Position numbers and translations under genes: made by a program | In this document: one piece after another, positions 772-62,377 of the stretch | Numbering within the stretch: the stretch's first letter is position 1 | Layout of the letters: each line of letters opens with the position of its first letter | Notes under the pieces: generated by a model | The model's database searches: none | The model's input: the letters and a program-made list of their open reading frames with translations, nothing else | Told to the model about the DNA's origin: nothing | Source of the DNA: a virus | DNA: 64,000 nucleotides | IMG/VR virus record: IMGVR_UViG_3300009788_000003 | Location: 1-64,000 of that record | Strand: one strand, 5' to 3'

Positions 772-1028
772 AACATCGGGCAAAGAGAATTACAACAGGT
801 GAATATTCCTACAGGGGATATGAACTTGCTGTTGATGCTACTGGTTGGATGATCAAAGTTGAAGGGGAGAATCATTACCCTTGGGATGCTGAATCCAAAA
901 AAGATGCAATGGGTTTTATTGATCAGATGATTGAAGATGATGAGACCAAAGCTACCCTTGCAAAATCTGAAAAACTTTCGGGTGAAGAACTTTATGAAGT
1001 AGACCCGTGGGCATGGTTGGATAGGTAG
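768..1028 (+). CDS. Hypothetical acidic protein
   Basis: 86 residues, starting MKHRAKRITTGEYSYRGYEL, with an acidic C-terminal half. The N-terminal YRGYELAVDATGWMIKVEG stretch looks like a small beta-rich domain seen in short phage proteins, but I cannot name it. Last gene of the rightward early unit. It is followed by leftward terminators that belong to the late block. Confidence 0.65.
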   Translation: MKHRAKRITTGEYSYRGYELAVDATGWMIKVEGENHYPWDAESKKDAMGFIDQMIEDDETKATLAKSEKLSGEELYEVDPWAWLDR

Positions 1029-1062
1029 TGGAATTTTAAATTCCATTAATTCCACAAGGCAT

Positions 1063-1085
1063 AAAAAAGCCCCATCAAGAAGGGC
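1063..1085 (-). terminator. Rho-independent terminator, distal copy
   Basis: On the minus strand a short hairpin GCCC/GGGC (1069-1072 and 1082-1085) is followed by six T. It is the second of two tandem stops at the end of the leftward late block. Confidence 0.55.
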
Positions 1086-1181
1086 AGTTCAAGACAGGGC
1101 TTGCACCCATTCTCAGGGGGATAGTTCTGAGAGGCATAGGCGGCATGATCATTATGTCATTGATTTTATCATTGTCAAATG

Positions 1182-42133: not shown

Positions 42134-42162
42134 ATCTTACAGGAGTCTAAAGTATTTGTCAA
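42134..42162 (-). promoter_or_regulatory. TTGACAAATA-family promoter
   Basis: TTGACA (42157-42162), 17 bases, TAAGAT (42134-42139), minus strand. It precedes the unit 41331 to 38479, including the DNA polymerase. Confidence 0.65.
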
Positions 42163-42848
42163 TCATTATTTACGATTAATGAAGTGCCGTTAGCAGCTAA
42201 ATAAGTCTGTGTTTTGTTCTTCGTTACCTGCCCTTCAATCCAATTTTCAATTAGATCAGTTCCAAAAGGAAGGCTAGTAGAACTTTGATTGCCCCAAGCA
42301 GTAGAAAGTTTTGAAGACTTCTTTTCTTTGCTGCCTTCAACTTTCTTGATTCCAAAATGCTTGTTCAACCAATTAATCTGTTCACTTGATTCAACAGCCT
42401 TCTTACAATAATTTTCTCTGACTGTGGTGGTTGCATCTTTATCCCCAATCATGTGCTTAGTCAGGGCAGCAAGGAACAAACCTGTTCTACCATGCCCACC
42501 GATACAACCCACAAAAACAGACTTGCCTTTTTTCATTTCTTTGGCAGTCCATGAAATCAGTTTTTTGAATTCACCTAAATCTTTAGGTACACCCATATCA
42601 GGAATCTTGAAATAAATATCTACTCCATCATTCCACGGATAAGACCGTTCACCTTTTTTGCCCCCACCATCCAGAGCAATAAAAATATCAACATCAGGGT
42701 AATTACTGGTACAACTTCCACCAACGATTTCCCACTTGCCTATTTTATAAACAGGATGTGTATGCCAACAAGGGGCATAAGATTTAATTTTAGATTTGGA
42801 CTTAGACTTTTTACTTTTGCCACTCCAAATATCAGCTACCTTAGTCAT
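42159..42848 (-). CDS. Dual-specificity-type phosphatase 1
   Basis: 229 residues. After a Ser/Lys-rich basic N-terminus, the cysteine phosphatase signature VFVGCIGGHGRTGLF (C-x5-R-T) follows a general-acid-type loop (DMGVP). The C-terminal 60 residues are polar and unrelated. It overlaps the next gene upstream by eight bases. A second enzyme of the same type is encoded 1.4 kb away (44274-44810). Confidence 0.75.
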   Translation of the reverse strand: MTKVADIWSGKSKKSKSKSKIKSYAPCWHTHPVYKIGKWEIVGGSCTSNYPDVDIFIALDGGGKKGERSYPWNDGVDIYFKIPDMGVPKDLGEFKKLISWTAKEMKKGKSVFVGCIGGHGRTGLFLAALTKHMIGDKDATTTVRENYCKKAVESSEQINWLNKHFGIKKVEGSKEKKSSKLSTAWGNQSSTSLPFGTDLIENWIEGQVTKNKTQTYLAANGTSLIVNND

Positions 42849-43875
42849 GTTTAACCCCCTTCCTTGTTAGGGTTGGAATTTTCATAATCATTAAATCAAG
42901 ATTACCAGATGGGAAAAATTCTTCATCTGAATCTGAATCTTTAGTTGCATCAACAGCATCTTTCGCTTTCTTAAATACATGCTTAGATAATGCCCCCGCT
43001 TCATGAATCGCAGCCGGGGAAACATAAGAATAAAACTCTTCACCCAGAATCGAAGCAGCAGAATTTACTTCCCCTACAAAGTTAGCAGCAACATTCGAAG
43101 CAACTCTAAAGGAAGGACACTCGCTTTTATATTTTTCGAAGTGCTTGATCAATGAAGGAATAGCTCCCCCACGTTGCATATCAAGTAATTGGGTAAGCCC
43201 CGCACCATCAAGTTCATGTTTATAAATTGTGTTCTTATTAAAGATTGAACCTGTGTTGTGAACCAAAGCCCACGCAACATCAACCATAGTGAAGGGTGAA
43301 ATTTCACCTTCCAGAACATGAGTAATTTTCTGGCTAATGTTTTTCCATTTCTTTCCACCATAAGAACCCATCCCTGCGAAACAATGAACAAACATCCAAT
43401 CACAATAGCGGGAAAAATCCAGAAGGTCTCTATCACAAGAAAGGAATTCATCCCGTGAACCAGAACGATTTTTCTTGCCGTTTGTAACTGAACCAAAATT
43501 CTTAACATCAGCACCATACTGCTTTAAAATTGTAGCAGATTGAGAATGCACTTTTCCATGCCGGGATTCCCCGACAGAAATTAAAAGGATATAAGTGAAG
43601 ATACGAAAGAAAACATCTTCCATATGTGAATGATGTGCTTTAACTAATTCGGCAACTGCTTCAGGAAGTTCAGTTTCAACCCCGTACTTAGATTCAACAG
43701 CACCCAGAACATGAGCACCAAGATAGAACCTGATAACATCTTCTTCAGGTTGAATCATTGCCGTAGTATTAACAGAAATAAATTTATCCATGCCCACTTT
43801 TTGCTTGCTGTATTCACAAGCTTTAAAGAGCATTGAATTTTTTAAGTCTTTAAGTATCATTAAAAATCTCTCCAT
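42841..43875 (-). CDS. Large hypothetical protein between two phosphatase genes
   Basis: 344 residues; I do not recognise the family. Polar, mainly helical, with conserved-looking stretches SVGESRHGKVHSQSATILKQYG, CDRDLLDFSRYCDWMFVHCFAGMGSYGGKKW and VDVAWALVHNTGSIFNKN. The C-terminus is acidic then basic. It lies between genes for phosphatase 1 and the 43860 protein, in one promoter unit, so a substrate or partner of the phosphatase is possible. Confidence 0.65.
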   Translation of the reverse strand: MERFLMILKDLKNSMLFKACEYSKQKVGMDKFISVNTTAMIQPEEDVIRFYLGAHVLGAVESKYGVETELPEAVAELVKAHHSHMEDVFFRIFTYILLISVGESRHGKVHSQSATILKQYGADVKNFGSVTNGKKNRSGSRDEFLSCDRDLLDFSRYCDWMFVHCFAGMGSYGGKKWKNISQKITHVLEGEISPFTMVDVAWALVHNTGSIFNKNTIYKHELDGAGLTQLLDMQRGGAIPSLIKHFEKYKSECPSFRVASNVAANFVGEVNSAASILGEEFYSYVSPAAIHEAGALSKHVFKKAKDAVDATKDSDSDEEFFPSGNLDLMIMKIPTLTRKGVKHD

Positions 43876-44273: not shown

Positions 44274-44810
44274 TTACCTGACAATATCCATACAATTATC
44301 GATTCGATCACGAATAGCCAACATTTCAGTTGGGTCATAATGACTTACAAATTTATATTGCTCTGAAGTTTCAACCGCAGTAGAAAGATATTCATCACGA
44401 ACAAATTCAACAGGCTCATAAACCATAGAACCATTCTCTAGGGTACTTGGATATTGGTTGAAGAATACTTTAATCCTGCCCCACAAAGTTTTTCTATCAG
44501 CTTCCAGATTCATGATACCAATTGTCTTGATCAAGATAGCCATGAACATTCCGGTTCGACCAATACCACCCATGCACCCAAGATAGATCACACCATCTTC
44601 AGTCAGGATTTTTAAAGCTTGGAAAAGAGCACCGTCTACTTGATGATTGGTAGGTACACCGAAATCAGGAATATCTAAAACGACATCCGCAGTAGATTCA
44701 ATTTCTTGTGCGAGTTTTACGCCTCTTATTTCGTGCGGTCTGTCTCGGTATGGGCCGCCCATTACCGTGACTTTGCGCCCTAACAATTTTGTTTCTATCA
44801 TTCCATTCAT
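44274..44810 (-). CDS. Dual-specificity-type phosphatase 2
   Basis: 178 residues. Signature VIYLGCMGGIGRTGMF (C-x5-R-T) preceded by DIPDFGVP. The N-terminus (VTVMGGPYRDRPHEI) differs from phosphatase 1. ATG at 44810 has GGGGA seven bases before it. The first 113 bases overlap the gene upstream in another frame. It ends the unit that begins with the PPDK-like gene. Confidence 0.75.
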   Translation of the reverse strand: MNGMIETKLLGRKVTVMGGPYRDRPHEIRGVKLAQEIESTADVVLDIPDFGVPTNHQVDGALFQALKILTEDGVIYLGCMGGIGRTGMFMAILIKTIGIMNLEADRKTLWGRIKVFFNQYPSTLENGSMVYEPVEFVRDEYLSTAVETSEQYKFVSHYDPTEMLAIRDRIDNCMDIVR

Positions 44811-45908: not shown

Positions 45909-47846
45909 CTAACCTATATGTATTCGTTTTTCGAGAAGACCTAATGCACTTTCCATTGCAACAACCCGTGCAGATAATCCCAACTGCTCACTAATTTGAT
46001 GGAAAGTTTCAGCATCACCCATAACATTTTCAATAAAATCTTTTTCGATGTACCCGATAAAATCAGGGTTCATAACATCAGCCATAGTTTTATAAGGCTT
46101 AGCAACTTGCTCAGTTACCCAAGTTCCTGAATCAAAAAATACGTTAGTCATTGCAGGATTATTACAAATAGCTTCATCCAATTCACGGGCAACTTCCATT
46201 GCTTCAGGGTTGGGGTCTCCAAGAAAATTACTGACTTTATCCCTACGCTCAGGATTAAGAAGAACAACCTTATCAAAACGATCAGCCAAATCAGCAAGTT
46301 CAGTAGCAGACAAACCTTCAACCGGAACCCCAATTTTATAAATGTAATCTTCAAGGCTCAGGGCTTCATTATAATTCTCAACCTTAATCCAATCATTTTC
46401 TGTAATGGCAACTTCAAAAAGACTACCCAAAAGTTCAACAGGAATGTTGGTTGAAAAATCAAGATCAAAAGGTTTATCTGATAAAAAGACTTCACCTTTT
46501 TGACCATCGATCAGAACATACATAGTTCCCAAAAGATTAGAAGCATCTGCAAACATAGGTTCAACATCAGGACAACCCACAACACAAGGCTTGTTCATTC
46601 CACGAGCAACAACAGCAGCGTGACAAGTAGCTGAACCTCTGAAGGTCAAAATACCTTTAGCTTTTTCCATTGCCTTAATATCTTCAGGGGTAGTTTCTTC
46701 GGCAACCAGAATTGTATCTTCGTTGCTGTCCAGAACTTCCTTCACAGAAAAAGCAGCTTTACCTGTGGCGAAGTATCCACCAGAACCAATACCCTTTGCA
46801 TTAGCTTTCTTTTTAAAATCAGCAGGGAGAACGGGAACCCGAAGTTTCATAAAAGTTCCTTCATTAATTCCATCACCCAATTCATCAATGATACCTTCTT
46901 CAAGAAGATCAAGAGCAATCTTGATTTCTGCATATGAAGACCGCGCACCATTACGAGTTTGAAGAATAAACAGTTCACCATCTTCAACAGTGAATTCAAT
47001 ATCCTGCATATCCTTATTTTTCTTTTCAAGAATTTTACCAATCTCAACCAGTTCATTATAAAGATCGATGTTCCACTTTTTCATTTCAGAAATCGGGGGG
47101 GCAGTAATATGACCCGCAACAACATCTTCACCCTGACAATTGGTAAGGAAGTCTCCAAAAACTTTCTTCGCCCCAGAATCAGGATTACGAGTAAACATAA
47201 CTCCTGAACCAGAGTTGTCATTGAAGTTTCCAAAAACCATAGATTGAATTATTACAGCAGTTCCCATATCGTTAGGAATCTTGTTCATCTTTCGATAGTG
47301 TGTGCAACGCTCATTATCAAAAGACTTCCAAACTGCTTCAATTGAATTACGGATAACATCCCGCAATTCAGGAATGTGTTTTTTGATGGTCTTCATCCAC
47401 TTAACAGGGTCTTCAATTTTTCCTTCATGACCCATAACAACACCCGCATACATTTCAACAAAACGTCTACGGCAATCTGCTTTCAAGTTTTTCTCTAAAC
47501 CCTTGTCTTCGTAACCTGCCCCAACATTCAAAACAGTATCCATCATTCCCGGCATTGAGATAGGCGCACCAGATCGAATCGATACAAGCTTATGAACCGA
47601 TTCAGGATAAATGTGGGTATCCAGTGCTTCCATAACAGCATCAATTACTTGATCAAGTATGAGAGTCTTACCTGTAGGATTTGATTTGCGGTATTGATTA
47701 CAAATGGCAGTAGGTATAACCATGCCAGTAGGAACATTAAGACCATCCATTTTCATTTCAATCAGGTTATGACCTTTGCCACCGTTACTATTAACAGTAG
47801 ACTTGTTATCAATTTGTCCTGATGTGAAAAGGTTAATTAAATTCAC
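45909..47846 (-). CDS. Shortened pyruvate phosphate dikinase-like protein
   Basis: 645 residues. The ATP-grasp half is PPDK-specific: VSIRSGAPISMPGMMDTVLN (about 88-107), GSGVMFTRNPDSGAKKVFGDF (about 213-230) and DIEFTVEDGELFILQTRNGARS (about 282-303). The swivelling phosphohistidine domain is present (GSATCHAAVVARGMNKPCVV, His about 409). The usual PEP/pyruvate-binding barrel (about 350 residues) is missing and replaced by about 175 residues of unknown sequence. It can thus be expected to autophosphorylate, but on what substrate is unknown. It heads a unit with a regulator, a CsrA-like protein and phosphatase 2. Confidence 0.8.
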   Translation of the reverse strand: MNLINLFTSGQIDNKSTVNSNGGKGHNLIEMKMDGLNVPTGMVIPTAICNQYRKSNPTGKTLILDQVIDAVMEALDTHIYPESVHKLVSIRSGAPISMPGMMDTVLNVGAGYEDKGLEKNLKADCRRRFVEMYAGVVMGHEGKIEDPVKWMKTIKKHIPELRDVIRNSIEAVWKSFDNERCTHYRKMNKIPNDMGTAVIIQSMVFGNFNDNSGSGVMFTRNPDSGAKKVFGDFLTNCQGEDVVAGHITAPPISEMKKWNIDLYNELVEIGKILEKKNKDMQDIEFTVEDGELFILQTRNGARSSYAEIKIALDLLEEGIIDELGDGINEGTFMKLRVPVLPADFKKKANAKGIGSGGYFATGKAAFSVKEVLDSNEDTILVAEETTPEDIKAMEKAKGILTFRGSATCHAAVVARGMNKPCVVGCPDVEPMFADASNLLGTMYVLIDGQKGEVFLSDKPFDLDFSTNIPVELLGSLFEVAITENDWIKVENYNEALSLEDYIYKIGVPVEGLSATELADLADRFDKVVLLNPERRDKVSNFLGDPNPEAMEVARELDEAICNNPAMTNVFFDSGTWVTEQVAKPYKTMADVMNPDFIGYIEKDFIENVMGDAETFHQISEQLGLSARVVAMESALGLLEKRIHIG

Positions 47847-60649: not shown

Positions 60650-60678
60650 ATTATACCACATCTAAATATATTTGTCAG
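60650..60678 (-). promoter_or_regulatory. TTGACAAATA-family promoter
   Basis: CTGACA (60673-60678), 17 bases, TATAAT (60650-60655), minus strand. Divergent from the rightward promoter at 60765. Confidence 0.7.
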
Positions 60679-60764
60679 TTTTATTTTTTCGGGATTTCTC
60701 TGCAAACACCCAATCAGCCTGTCTATCAGCCCTAAAAATAATTGAAATTAATTTCATAAATCGC

Positions 60765-60792
60765 TTGACAAATAATACGTGTGTGCTATTAT
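60765..60792 (+). promoter_or_regulatory. TTGACAAATA-family promoter of the structured RNA
   Basis: TTGACA (60765-60770), 16 bases, TATTAT (60787-60792). It reads into the non-coding region at 60799. Confidence 0.8.
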
Positions 60793-61035
60793 TAAGGTGT
60801 AAGTTAAGTAATGTGAGATTGAAACGGGGAAGGTCAGAATCCTCATTCGCAAGAATCATCGACTGACCGGACTCACCCCCTGATAGGCAGGTGGGTACAT
60901 TGAACAGGAAGTTTAGTGGTCTCACACTACTTAATTTACCACGGAAGAACGAATCGCTCATAAGCCAATAGGAACGGACAAGGGTAACGGGAGTAACCCA
61001 GATTAATATTCCCACCAAATTTGTTTTAATGTACG

Positions 61036-61139
61036 AGAAGGGTTAGCAGGGTTCGATTCCCTGCCAGTGTCACGAAGCTTCACCAGACCGGGTTTACCGG
61101 GGAAGGGCATTGAGAGAGTATTTTGGTACGGCTCCTTCT
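61036..61139 (+). ncRNA. tRNA-like element in permuted order
   Basis: Order along the strand: AGAAGG (61036-61041), 5-base variable region, T-arm GCAGGG-TTCGATT-CCCTGC (61046-61064), CAGTGTC (61065-61071), 34-base spacer, GGCATTG (61106-61112; pairs with CAGTGTC over seven positions with two G-U), a D-arm-like loop with TTTTGGTAC, and CCTTCT (61134-61139; pairs with AGAAGG). It is a cloverleaf with 3' half before 5' half. No clear anticodon loop. Confidence 0.4.
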
Positions 61140-61589
61140 ATTTTTTTTGAAAGTTCTTAGGTACTGCTAGTACATCCCGTTTCGATCACGGGTGAGACCT
61201 TAAGACTCTCAGTTAATCGGCAACAGTCGAAGACGTTTGACACGAAGGTTGGAATCCTTCTGCTGAGAACTTTCAAAAAAATTTATGTCTTTGATGAACG
61301 GTTTTTGTCCTTGACTACTTTGGGGGGTTGAATATTGCCCTTGGAGCATGATACCTGAACGGATACGTTCTTGGGAATAGTTCCCGGCAATGCTAGACCA
61401 ATAGTGGTAGGTTCGAACCCGAAGACCGTTCTTCAAAGACTTAAAGCGGAGCTAGGGCATCAGGAATGGCTTAAGACTGAACTGATGTACGTGACTGTTC
61501 TGGGTTGACAGGTGCATTCTACCGAAATTGAATGACCGCAAACGGGATTGCAGGTTATCGTATAACCACTTTTCTAGACCCCTCGATTT

Positions 61590-61660
61590 AGAGCTTGCTT
61601 CAATCCGATGATGCACATCGAACAATACGTGCTAGGTGAAATGAGGCAAGTTCTTTTTTT
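61590..61660 (+). terminator. Terminator of the structured RNA
   Basis: AGAGCTTGCTTCA (61590-61602) pairs with TGAGGCAAGTTCT (61642-61654), followed by seven T. An inner hairpin CGATG/CATCG lies at 61606-61620. Confidence 0.7.
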
Positions 61661-61677
61661 ACACTAGGAGGTAATAC

Positions 61678-61866
61678 ATGAACGTGGAGATATCTGAATT
61701 CGGGGAAACCCGCGAAGTTGAGAACATCATTGAAATAAAGGTGACACCAACATTCTACGGGAATGGGGAATACAATTACACGCACGTTGCTTTGATTCAC
61801 GATAAAAGTTTAAAGCACGAACCTGTCCTACTTAGGAACAGCGAAGATTACGTGTCAATCCGATGA
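61678..61866 (+). CDS. Small hypothetical protein, rightward unit
   Basis: 62 residues (MNVEISEFGETREVENIIEIKVTPTFYGNGEYNYTHVAL...), beta-rich. AGGAGG precedes the ATG by about eight bases. First of three rightward genes directly after the RNA terminator. Family unrecognised. Confidence 0.6.
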   Translation: MNVEISEFGETREVENIIEIKVTPTFYGNGEYNYTHVALIHDKSLKHEPVLLRNSEDYVSIR

Positions 61867-62153
61867 GCAAATTATTTGACCTTATCGAAGTAGCGAGAGC
61901 GTTGAAACCTGCTGAATGGGAACCCTGCAATAATTGCGGGTGGTGTTGCCTTACCGAAGTTTGCCCTACCGGAATTGAATTTGGTGGCACGGCAAGCATA
62001 CCCTGTAAATTTCTGGAATCAGAAGGTGATAAGCATTATTGCGGATTAGCGAAATTGAATATCCCGGTAATGAATGAACACCTGTCCATAGGTACAGGCT
62101 GTGATGCTCGTACCCAACAGGAACAACTTGCAAGTCTGGGATTCACGATATGA
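61863..62153 (+). CDS. YkgJ-like Cys-cluster protein
   Basis: 96 residues. CNNCGWCCLTEVCP near residue 22-35, then CKF and YCGL further on, match the CxxCxxCC pattern of YkgJ-type Zn/Fe-binding proteins (DUF-type, function unknown). Overlaps both neighbours by four bases. Confidence 0.6.
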   Translation: MSKLFDLIEVARALKPAEWEPCNNCGWCCLTEVCPTGIEFGGTASIPCKFLESEGDKHYCGLAKLNIPVMNEHLSIGTGCDARTQQEQLASLGFTI

Positions 62154-62377
62154 AGACCTACCGTATTCAAGATTTCTTCACGGGTAGACCGATACCCACC
62201 GAACAATATTTTATGGATGTCCACCTGTTCGACACTCCCAAAACTATTGCCGCTGCAATCAACAATCTTCCCGGCCCGTGTATCAAGGTATCGGTTCGCC
62301 ACGATGTAGGCAGAAAAGGCAGACAGGAAGCGCGATTAGCAGGAATAAAATGTGGTGTTGAAATCGTTTTCACATAA
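62150..62377 (+). CDS. Hypothetical small basic protein
   Basis: 75 residues (MKTYRIQDFFTGRPIPTEQYFMDVHLFDTPKTIAAAINNLPG...), basic C-terminal half. Its last bases overlap the stop region of the leftward gene at 62370 (convergent). Family unrecognised. Confidence 0.6.
   Translation: MKTYRIQDFFTGRPIPTEQYFMDVHLFDTPKTIAAAINNLPGPCIKVSVRHDVGRKGRQEARLAGIKCGVEIVFT

Follow-up and report, generated by a model that had tools for sequence, protein, structure and literature searches.

The window analysed here, 64 kb in length, lies within an 89,323-bp IMG/VR phage record whose large terminase shares ~45% identity with its counterparts in the Stenotrophomonas phages DLP_3/DLP_5 and in Vibrio siphophages, SIO-2 among them. 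Some 1.5 kb away from this terminase gene, flanked by a leftward cluster of small genes on one side and three rightward small genes on the other, we found a locus for a structured noncoding RNA of ~860 nt (60799-61661; Table 1), which displays compensatory base changes and no conserved reading frame. Elsewhere in the window we noted two dual-specificity phosphatase-like genes (42159-42848 and 44274-44810, minus strand) flanking a gene without a family (42841-43875), and a gene for a 645-aa protein (45909-47846, minus strand) matching PHROG 18609, 'kinase' (E 5.8e-132), which by eye resembles pyruvate phosphate dikinase and is unusual cargo for this type of phage.

Table 1. Features of the RNA locus in the window and of a small conserved gene near it in related phages (fold z, stability of the part folded alone).
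Feature	Coordinates	Strand	Fold z	Description
Promoter	60765..60792	+		TTGACA-16-TATTAT, extended -10 (TG); 11/12 consensus match; kept in L008 and L100
Cassette D1	60800..60938	+	-4.7	19-bp closing helix (60800-60819/60919-60938) enclosing three hairpins
Module D2	60941..61142	+	+0.3	Pseudoknot, T-arm and more hairpins; no long closing helix
H-type pseudoknot in D2	60982..61020	+		GGGT 60982-60985/ACCC 60996-60999; loop GGGAGT 60989-60994 pairs with 61008-61013
T-arm hairpin in D2	61046..61064	+		GCAGGG-TTCGATT-CCCTGC
Cassette D3	61143..61282	+	-3.3	16-bp closing helix (61145-61160/61263-61278) enclosing four covarying arms
Cassette D4	61287..61440	+	-6.4	20-bp closing helix
Module D5, universal 3' core	61441..61589	+	+0.1	Present in all five lineages; no long closing helix
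Intrinsic terminator	61590..61661	+	-3.5 (stem)	13-bp stem (61590-61602/61642-61654); T run to 61661
Three small downstream genes	61678..62377	+		61678-61866, 61863-62153, 62150-62377
Basic ~35-aa peptide	L010 13591-13695	-
Basic ~35-aa peptide	L014 9943-10044	+
Basic ~35-aa peptide	L008 4250-4354	-
Basic ~35-aa peptide	L024 628-732	-

A preliminary description of this DNA had placed a promoter at 60765 and a terminator around a region devoid of credible genes, and all three proposals were borne out. The promoter, which is close to the consensus, puts the expected transcription start near 60799. Its 5' stretch recurs in the phage record at 83844, 44215 and 54885 (all minus strand); the copies are 83-90% identical to it over 30-47 nt and point to a family of promoters spread across the phage. 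The terminator stem and T run were confirmed, and they escape a simple terminator scan because the inner loop is long. Comparison with the relatives described below revealed no reading frame conserved across the RNA region, and in L008 the longest ORF, which codes for 118 aa on the minus strand (60662-61018), is broken; we hence rejected a protein-coding region. The three small genes downstream belong to no Pfam or PHROG family and show no promoter of their own; they are possible read-through targets of transcription of the RNA.

Relatives were sought by means of the terminase C-terminus, DNA patterns drawn from the RNA and a neighbouring gene coding for a 165-aa protein. The RNA is present in five phage lineages, all metagenomic, namely that of the window (to which contig L007 also belongs), L008, L010, L014/L015 and L100 (the same as L024). 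It is complete in L008, L014/L015 and L100, and its 5' end is cut by the contig in L010. As there are only five lineages and several of them are rearranged or cut, secondary structure was compared module by module rather than end to end. Relative to the terminase gene, the RNA locus of L014/L015 is also inverted, its orientation being opposite to that in the window, L008 and L010. A model of the D5 core (R2) matched every lineage at E 1.9e-26 or better and none of the other phages scanned. Nothing similar was found among 50,697 phage records, which thus yielded no relative from an isolated phage, and the D5 pattern recovered no RNA relatives from the prokaryotic genomes of GTDB. Prokaryotic genomes offered two terminase relatives only, of which the longer (L098) is without a D3 or D5 match. 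Likewise, ~60 more distant phage contigs with related terminases from IMG/VR had neither D3 nor D5 near the terminase gene; the distant terminase relative L042 gave a model match at E 0.14 only, inside a tRNA array, and looser pattern scans with D2 and with a tRNA-like module of L010/L014 added no contigs.

The minimum free energy of the 866-nt region is -287 kcal/mol; 20 dinucleotide shuffles gave -243 +/- 9 (z -4.8), and none of them (0/20) folds as well. The long-range multibranch of this single-sequence fold was rejected, its pairs enclosing D3-D5 being broken in L008. The RNA comprises five separable modules, with covariation in four (D1, the D2 pseudoknot, D3 and D5). The view that it consists of four domains closed by long helices is valid for D1 (19 pairs), D3 (16) and D4 (20), but there are five modules, and D2 and D5 have no such helix. 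Folded alone, these two are of average stability; the case for them comes from covariation and the pseudoknot rather than from fold energy.

Compensatory base changes, which the preliminary description had named as a check, were found in D1, D3 and D5. Between the window and L008, the paired sites of D1 show 21 substitutions, yet 44 of the 48 pairs are kept, and six have changed on both sides while remaining paired (p<0.0002; 0/5000 random placements of the substitutions were as good). The D1 closing helix GTTAAGTA/TACTTAAT becomes GTTGATTC/GAATCAAC in this relative, and a hairpin loop is GCAA in the window and TTCG in L008. For D3, three distinct sequences support 37 pairs, with 100% of the cells paired and two-sided changes at 9/37 (0/500 shuffles); one of its arms, at 61176-61192, carries a T-loop, another hairpin, at 61244-61260, is likewise T-arm-like, and in the arm with the loop TTCGATY the stem is largely variable and the loop constant. 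The D3 model recovers the L100 copy, which was absent from the model, at E 1.9e-24, and this copy has one further compensated hairpin. A small hairpin proposed earlier, GTACTGCTAGTAC (61161-61173), is not kept in L010. The D5 core, compared in five sequences, has two-sided changes at 15 of its 35 pairs (0/500 shuffles); CATCAG/CTGATG (61458-61487) and GGTTAT/ATAACC (61553-61567), the other two hairpins picked out at the start, both covary.

Module D2 is found in the window, L008 and L014/L015, and partially in L100. All 10 pairs of its pseudoknot are kept in four sequences, two of them with two-sided changes, the shuffle control being weak with so few sequences (51/500). The D2 T-arm shows a compensation of G-C to A-U in L008 at 61049-61061. 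We also observed that the heptamer ACCAAAT (61014-61020), which directly follows the pseudoknot, is invariant and occurs again in related loci, where encoded tRNAs have it right after their acceptor stem (CCACCAAATTTT); judged by these motifs, the pseudoknot and the heptamer resemble an acceptor end in pseudoknotted form. For D2, ARAGORN reports a tRNA-Val in the L014/L015 copy and nothing in the window copy; we rejected a tRNA gene here, the supposed D-loop pairing downstream in the covarying pseudoknot. D4 is nearly identical in L008, has a different interior in L100/L024 (121 nt in L024 versus 163 nt in the window, with the same closing helix) and is missing from L010 and L014. A duplication linking D3 and D4 was considered and rejected (17.8 bits, E 0.1, no convincing alignment). 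Three T-loop-type sequences had been reported in the RNA: those at 61047-61063 and 61176-61192 are indeed perfect, conserved T-arms, and the third, in D4, is missing from the D4 of L100/L024.

The order of these parts differs between the phages. The arrangement D1-D2-D3-D4-D5-terminator of the window corresponds to D1-D2-D3-D4-D5-tRNA-Tyr in L008; L100 has D2(partial)-D1-D3-D4'-D5-hairpin ending in CCA-tRNA-Tyr, L014 has D2-D5-tRNA-Asn-tRNA-like module-D3-other hairpins-tRNA-Glu, and L010 has tRNA end-tRNA-like module-D3-D5-tRNA-Glu. Thus, D1 precedes D2 in two phages and its homologue in L100 follows D2; D3 precedes D5 in four phages but comes after it in the fifth; and D4 may be absent, and its interior can be exchanged. 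Helix-closed cassettes have been gained, lost, reordered and given new interiors between related phages. Only two positions of the D3-D4 block distinguish the window from L008 even as D1 has diverged by ~20%, which suggests a recent exchange of that block. Further, contigs L010, L012 and L013 break off inside the RNA or where it starts, and L101 does so ~0.1 kb away, suggesting that the locus is variable within populations.

In the relatives, a tRNA (for Tyr, Glu or Asn, depending on the phage) starts ~8 nt past the end of D5, with a near-constant junction, CGAATTTT or CGATTTATT. RNase P cleaves at the mature 5' end of tRNAs; the near-constant distance hence suggests that it releases the 3' end of the RNA in these phages. 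The terminator of the window occupies the position of tRNA-Tyr in L008, tRNA-Glu in L010 and tRNA-Asn in L014. ARAGORN detected no tRNA gene in the window or in the whole 89-kb record, and the RNA is therefore independent of a tRNA in cis. The region has no match to RF00005 (tRNA), and neither ARAGORN nor Rfam scores the modules of the window as tRNAs. A separate tRNA-like module of L010/L014 retains a 4-bp acceptor, a D-arm and a T-arm, all with compensatory differences, whereas its anticodon arm has given way to three hairpins, in a fold for which the arms were imposed as constraints and which in L014 is also the unconstrained minimum; the L010 copy scores 24.5 bits as a tRNA in Rfam, below the cut-off. 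In this, the RNA is akin to tRNA-like structures, through the T-arm hairpins and the acceptor, D-arm and T-arm of the L010/L014 module, but differs from them in that the window modules fall below tRNA calling and the anticodon arm is replaced. Two further elements of these loci deserve mention. A hairpin between D5 and tRNA-Tyr in L100 (~1024-1127, minus strand) has an 11-bp acceptor-like stem and an encoded CCA-like end, GCCGCCA, and is not called as a tRNA by ARAGORN. Downstream of the RNA/tRNA unit, four lineages code for a conserved, very basic ~35-aa peptide (KKxGxPxSxSRxWxK..KR), which has no match in the window phage and is a possible RNA-binding partner.

The size and phage setting of the RNA recall GOLLD and ROOL, phage and prophage RNAs often encoded near tRNA islands that form RNA-only nanocages (PMC12286853). 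GOLLD, of ~800 nt, lies near or contains tRNAs, has a constant 3' part and a variable 5' part and assembles into a closed 14-mer, and the large, pseudoknotted ROOL likewise forms a closed nanocage (PMC12286853). Our RNA shares with GOLLD the phage setting, a similar size, the contrast of a constant D5 with variable D1-D4 and, in the relatives though not in the window phage, adjoining tRNAs; with ROOL it shares the phage setting, large size, pseudoknotting and, in the relatives, the tRNA neighbourhood. This resemblance, proposed in the preliminary description, does not extend to membership, which we rejected on the basis of covariance-model searches. Neither the GOLLD model (RF02032) nor the ROOL model (RF03087) matched any of six phage records at E<=10, and GOLLD was also absent from lenient Rfam scans; the ROOL of plasmid pMP118, a positive control covering ROOL only, scored 130.4 bits, above the cut-off. 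No Rfam family matched at the gathering score, only chance-level matches appearing at E up to 10, and HEARO and OLE, for which a covariance check had also been proposed, did not appear when the window and the region were scanned with Rfam 15. Moreover, the cassettes of the new RNA reorder between relatives, and we know of no report of such reordering in GOLLD. Among other large phage noncoding RNAs, the Vibrio phage ICP1 makes an abundant ~800-nt transcript and is, like the window phage, without tRNAs (PMC7567579), and the Staphylococcus phage K produces abundant large lncRNAs near tRNAs (PMC9241854), as in the relatives of the window phage; the role of either is not known. Both genomes lack a D5 model match, a convincing D3 match and any BLAST match.

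The weight of the evidence thus favors a new class of phage noncoding RNA that is large, structured and modular and probably scaffold-like; to this reading we assign a probability of about 0.55. This class would be of the same broad kind as GOLLD and ROOL without being a member of either, its newness being judged against the open-licence literature; of the two options in the preliminary description, its alternative of an unknown class fits better. That it is GOLLD or ROOL diverged beyond recognition appears very improbable: the size class, phage setting, tRNA neighbourhood and constant 3'/variable 5' organization are shared (PMC12286853), but the six records, the lenient Rfam scans and the working ROOL control all speak against it. 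An even less credible proposal is that the locus is a tRNA cluster in decay, or debris of mobile hairpins, and has no present function. While true tRNAs and tRNA-like pieces are mixed among the modules, the compensatory changes throughout D1, D3 and D5 together with the intact promoter imply purifying selection on the structure, and the covariation largely refutes this proposal.

Two functional alternatives need to be considered alongside these. The modules might form an array of tRNA mimics directed against host defences, which serve as decoys for tRNA-cutting or -modifying enzymes or resupply tRNAs, with their shuffling driven by an arms race. The conserved T-arms of D2 and D3, the short acceptor, D-arm and T-arm kept in the L010/L014 module, the interleaving of modules with genuine tRNAs of changing identity, and the high population variability suggested by the contig ends of L010, L012, L013 and L101 at or near the RNA all accord with this idea. 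Nevertheless, we regard it as unlikely, given that the window phage keeps the RNA without any tRNA gene in 89 kb, that the pseudoknot accounts better for what looks like a D-arm in D2, and that position 56 of the D3 T-loop varies (G, A, C), so that the elbow contacts are not kept; moreover, T-loops are common tertiary motifs of unrelated RNAs. More doubtful still is a long structured 5' leader acting on the three small downstream genes by attenuation at the terminator. The first of these genes does begin ~17 nt past the T run, and it has a good Shine-Dalgarno site and shows no separate promoter, but in L008 the homologue of the 61678 gene lies >1 kb downstream, behind the tRNA and other small genes, and the relatives have tRNAs rather than terminators after D5. 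The size and cassette shuffling are also unlike those of attenuators, and we know of none comparable in both respects.

Returning to the reading as a new class of scaffold-like RNA, we posit that during infection the RNA would be transcribed from a sigma-70 promoter of its own. Cleavage by RNase P where the mature tRNA following D5 begins would free its 3' end in the relatives, and in the window phage the terminator would make this end in place of tRNA processing. The D2 pseudoknot and the D5 core would constitute the constant part, into which helix-closed cassettes might be plugged as exchangeable arms, partly held by T-loop contacts. By analogy with GOLLD and ROOL, the most likely role of the RNA is not that of an mRNA but that of an abundant scaffold, which may be multimeric. 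A bolder version, which we put forward only tentatively and consider rather doubtful, is that it evolves by exchange of helix-closed domains, some of them tRNA-derived, and functions in infection as a variable scaffold for counter-defence or tRNA capture.

To our knowledge, very few RNA classes of this size exist in bacteria and their phages, and no phage one has an established function. The exchange of self-contained RNA domains, if true, would parallel domain shuffling in proteins. Moreover, the domains that have been moved, lost or given new interiors while keeping their closing helices amount to natural deletion and swap variants, which make the role of large ornate phage RNAs, and the parts of them that matter, directly testable.
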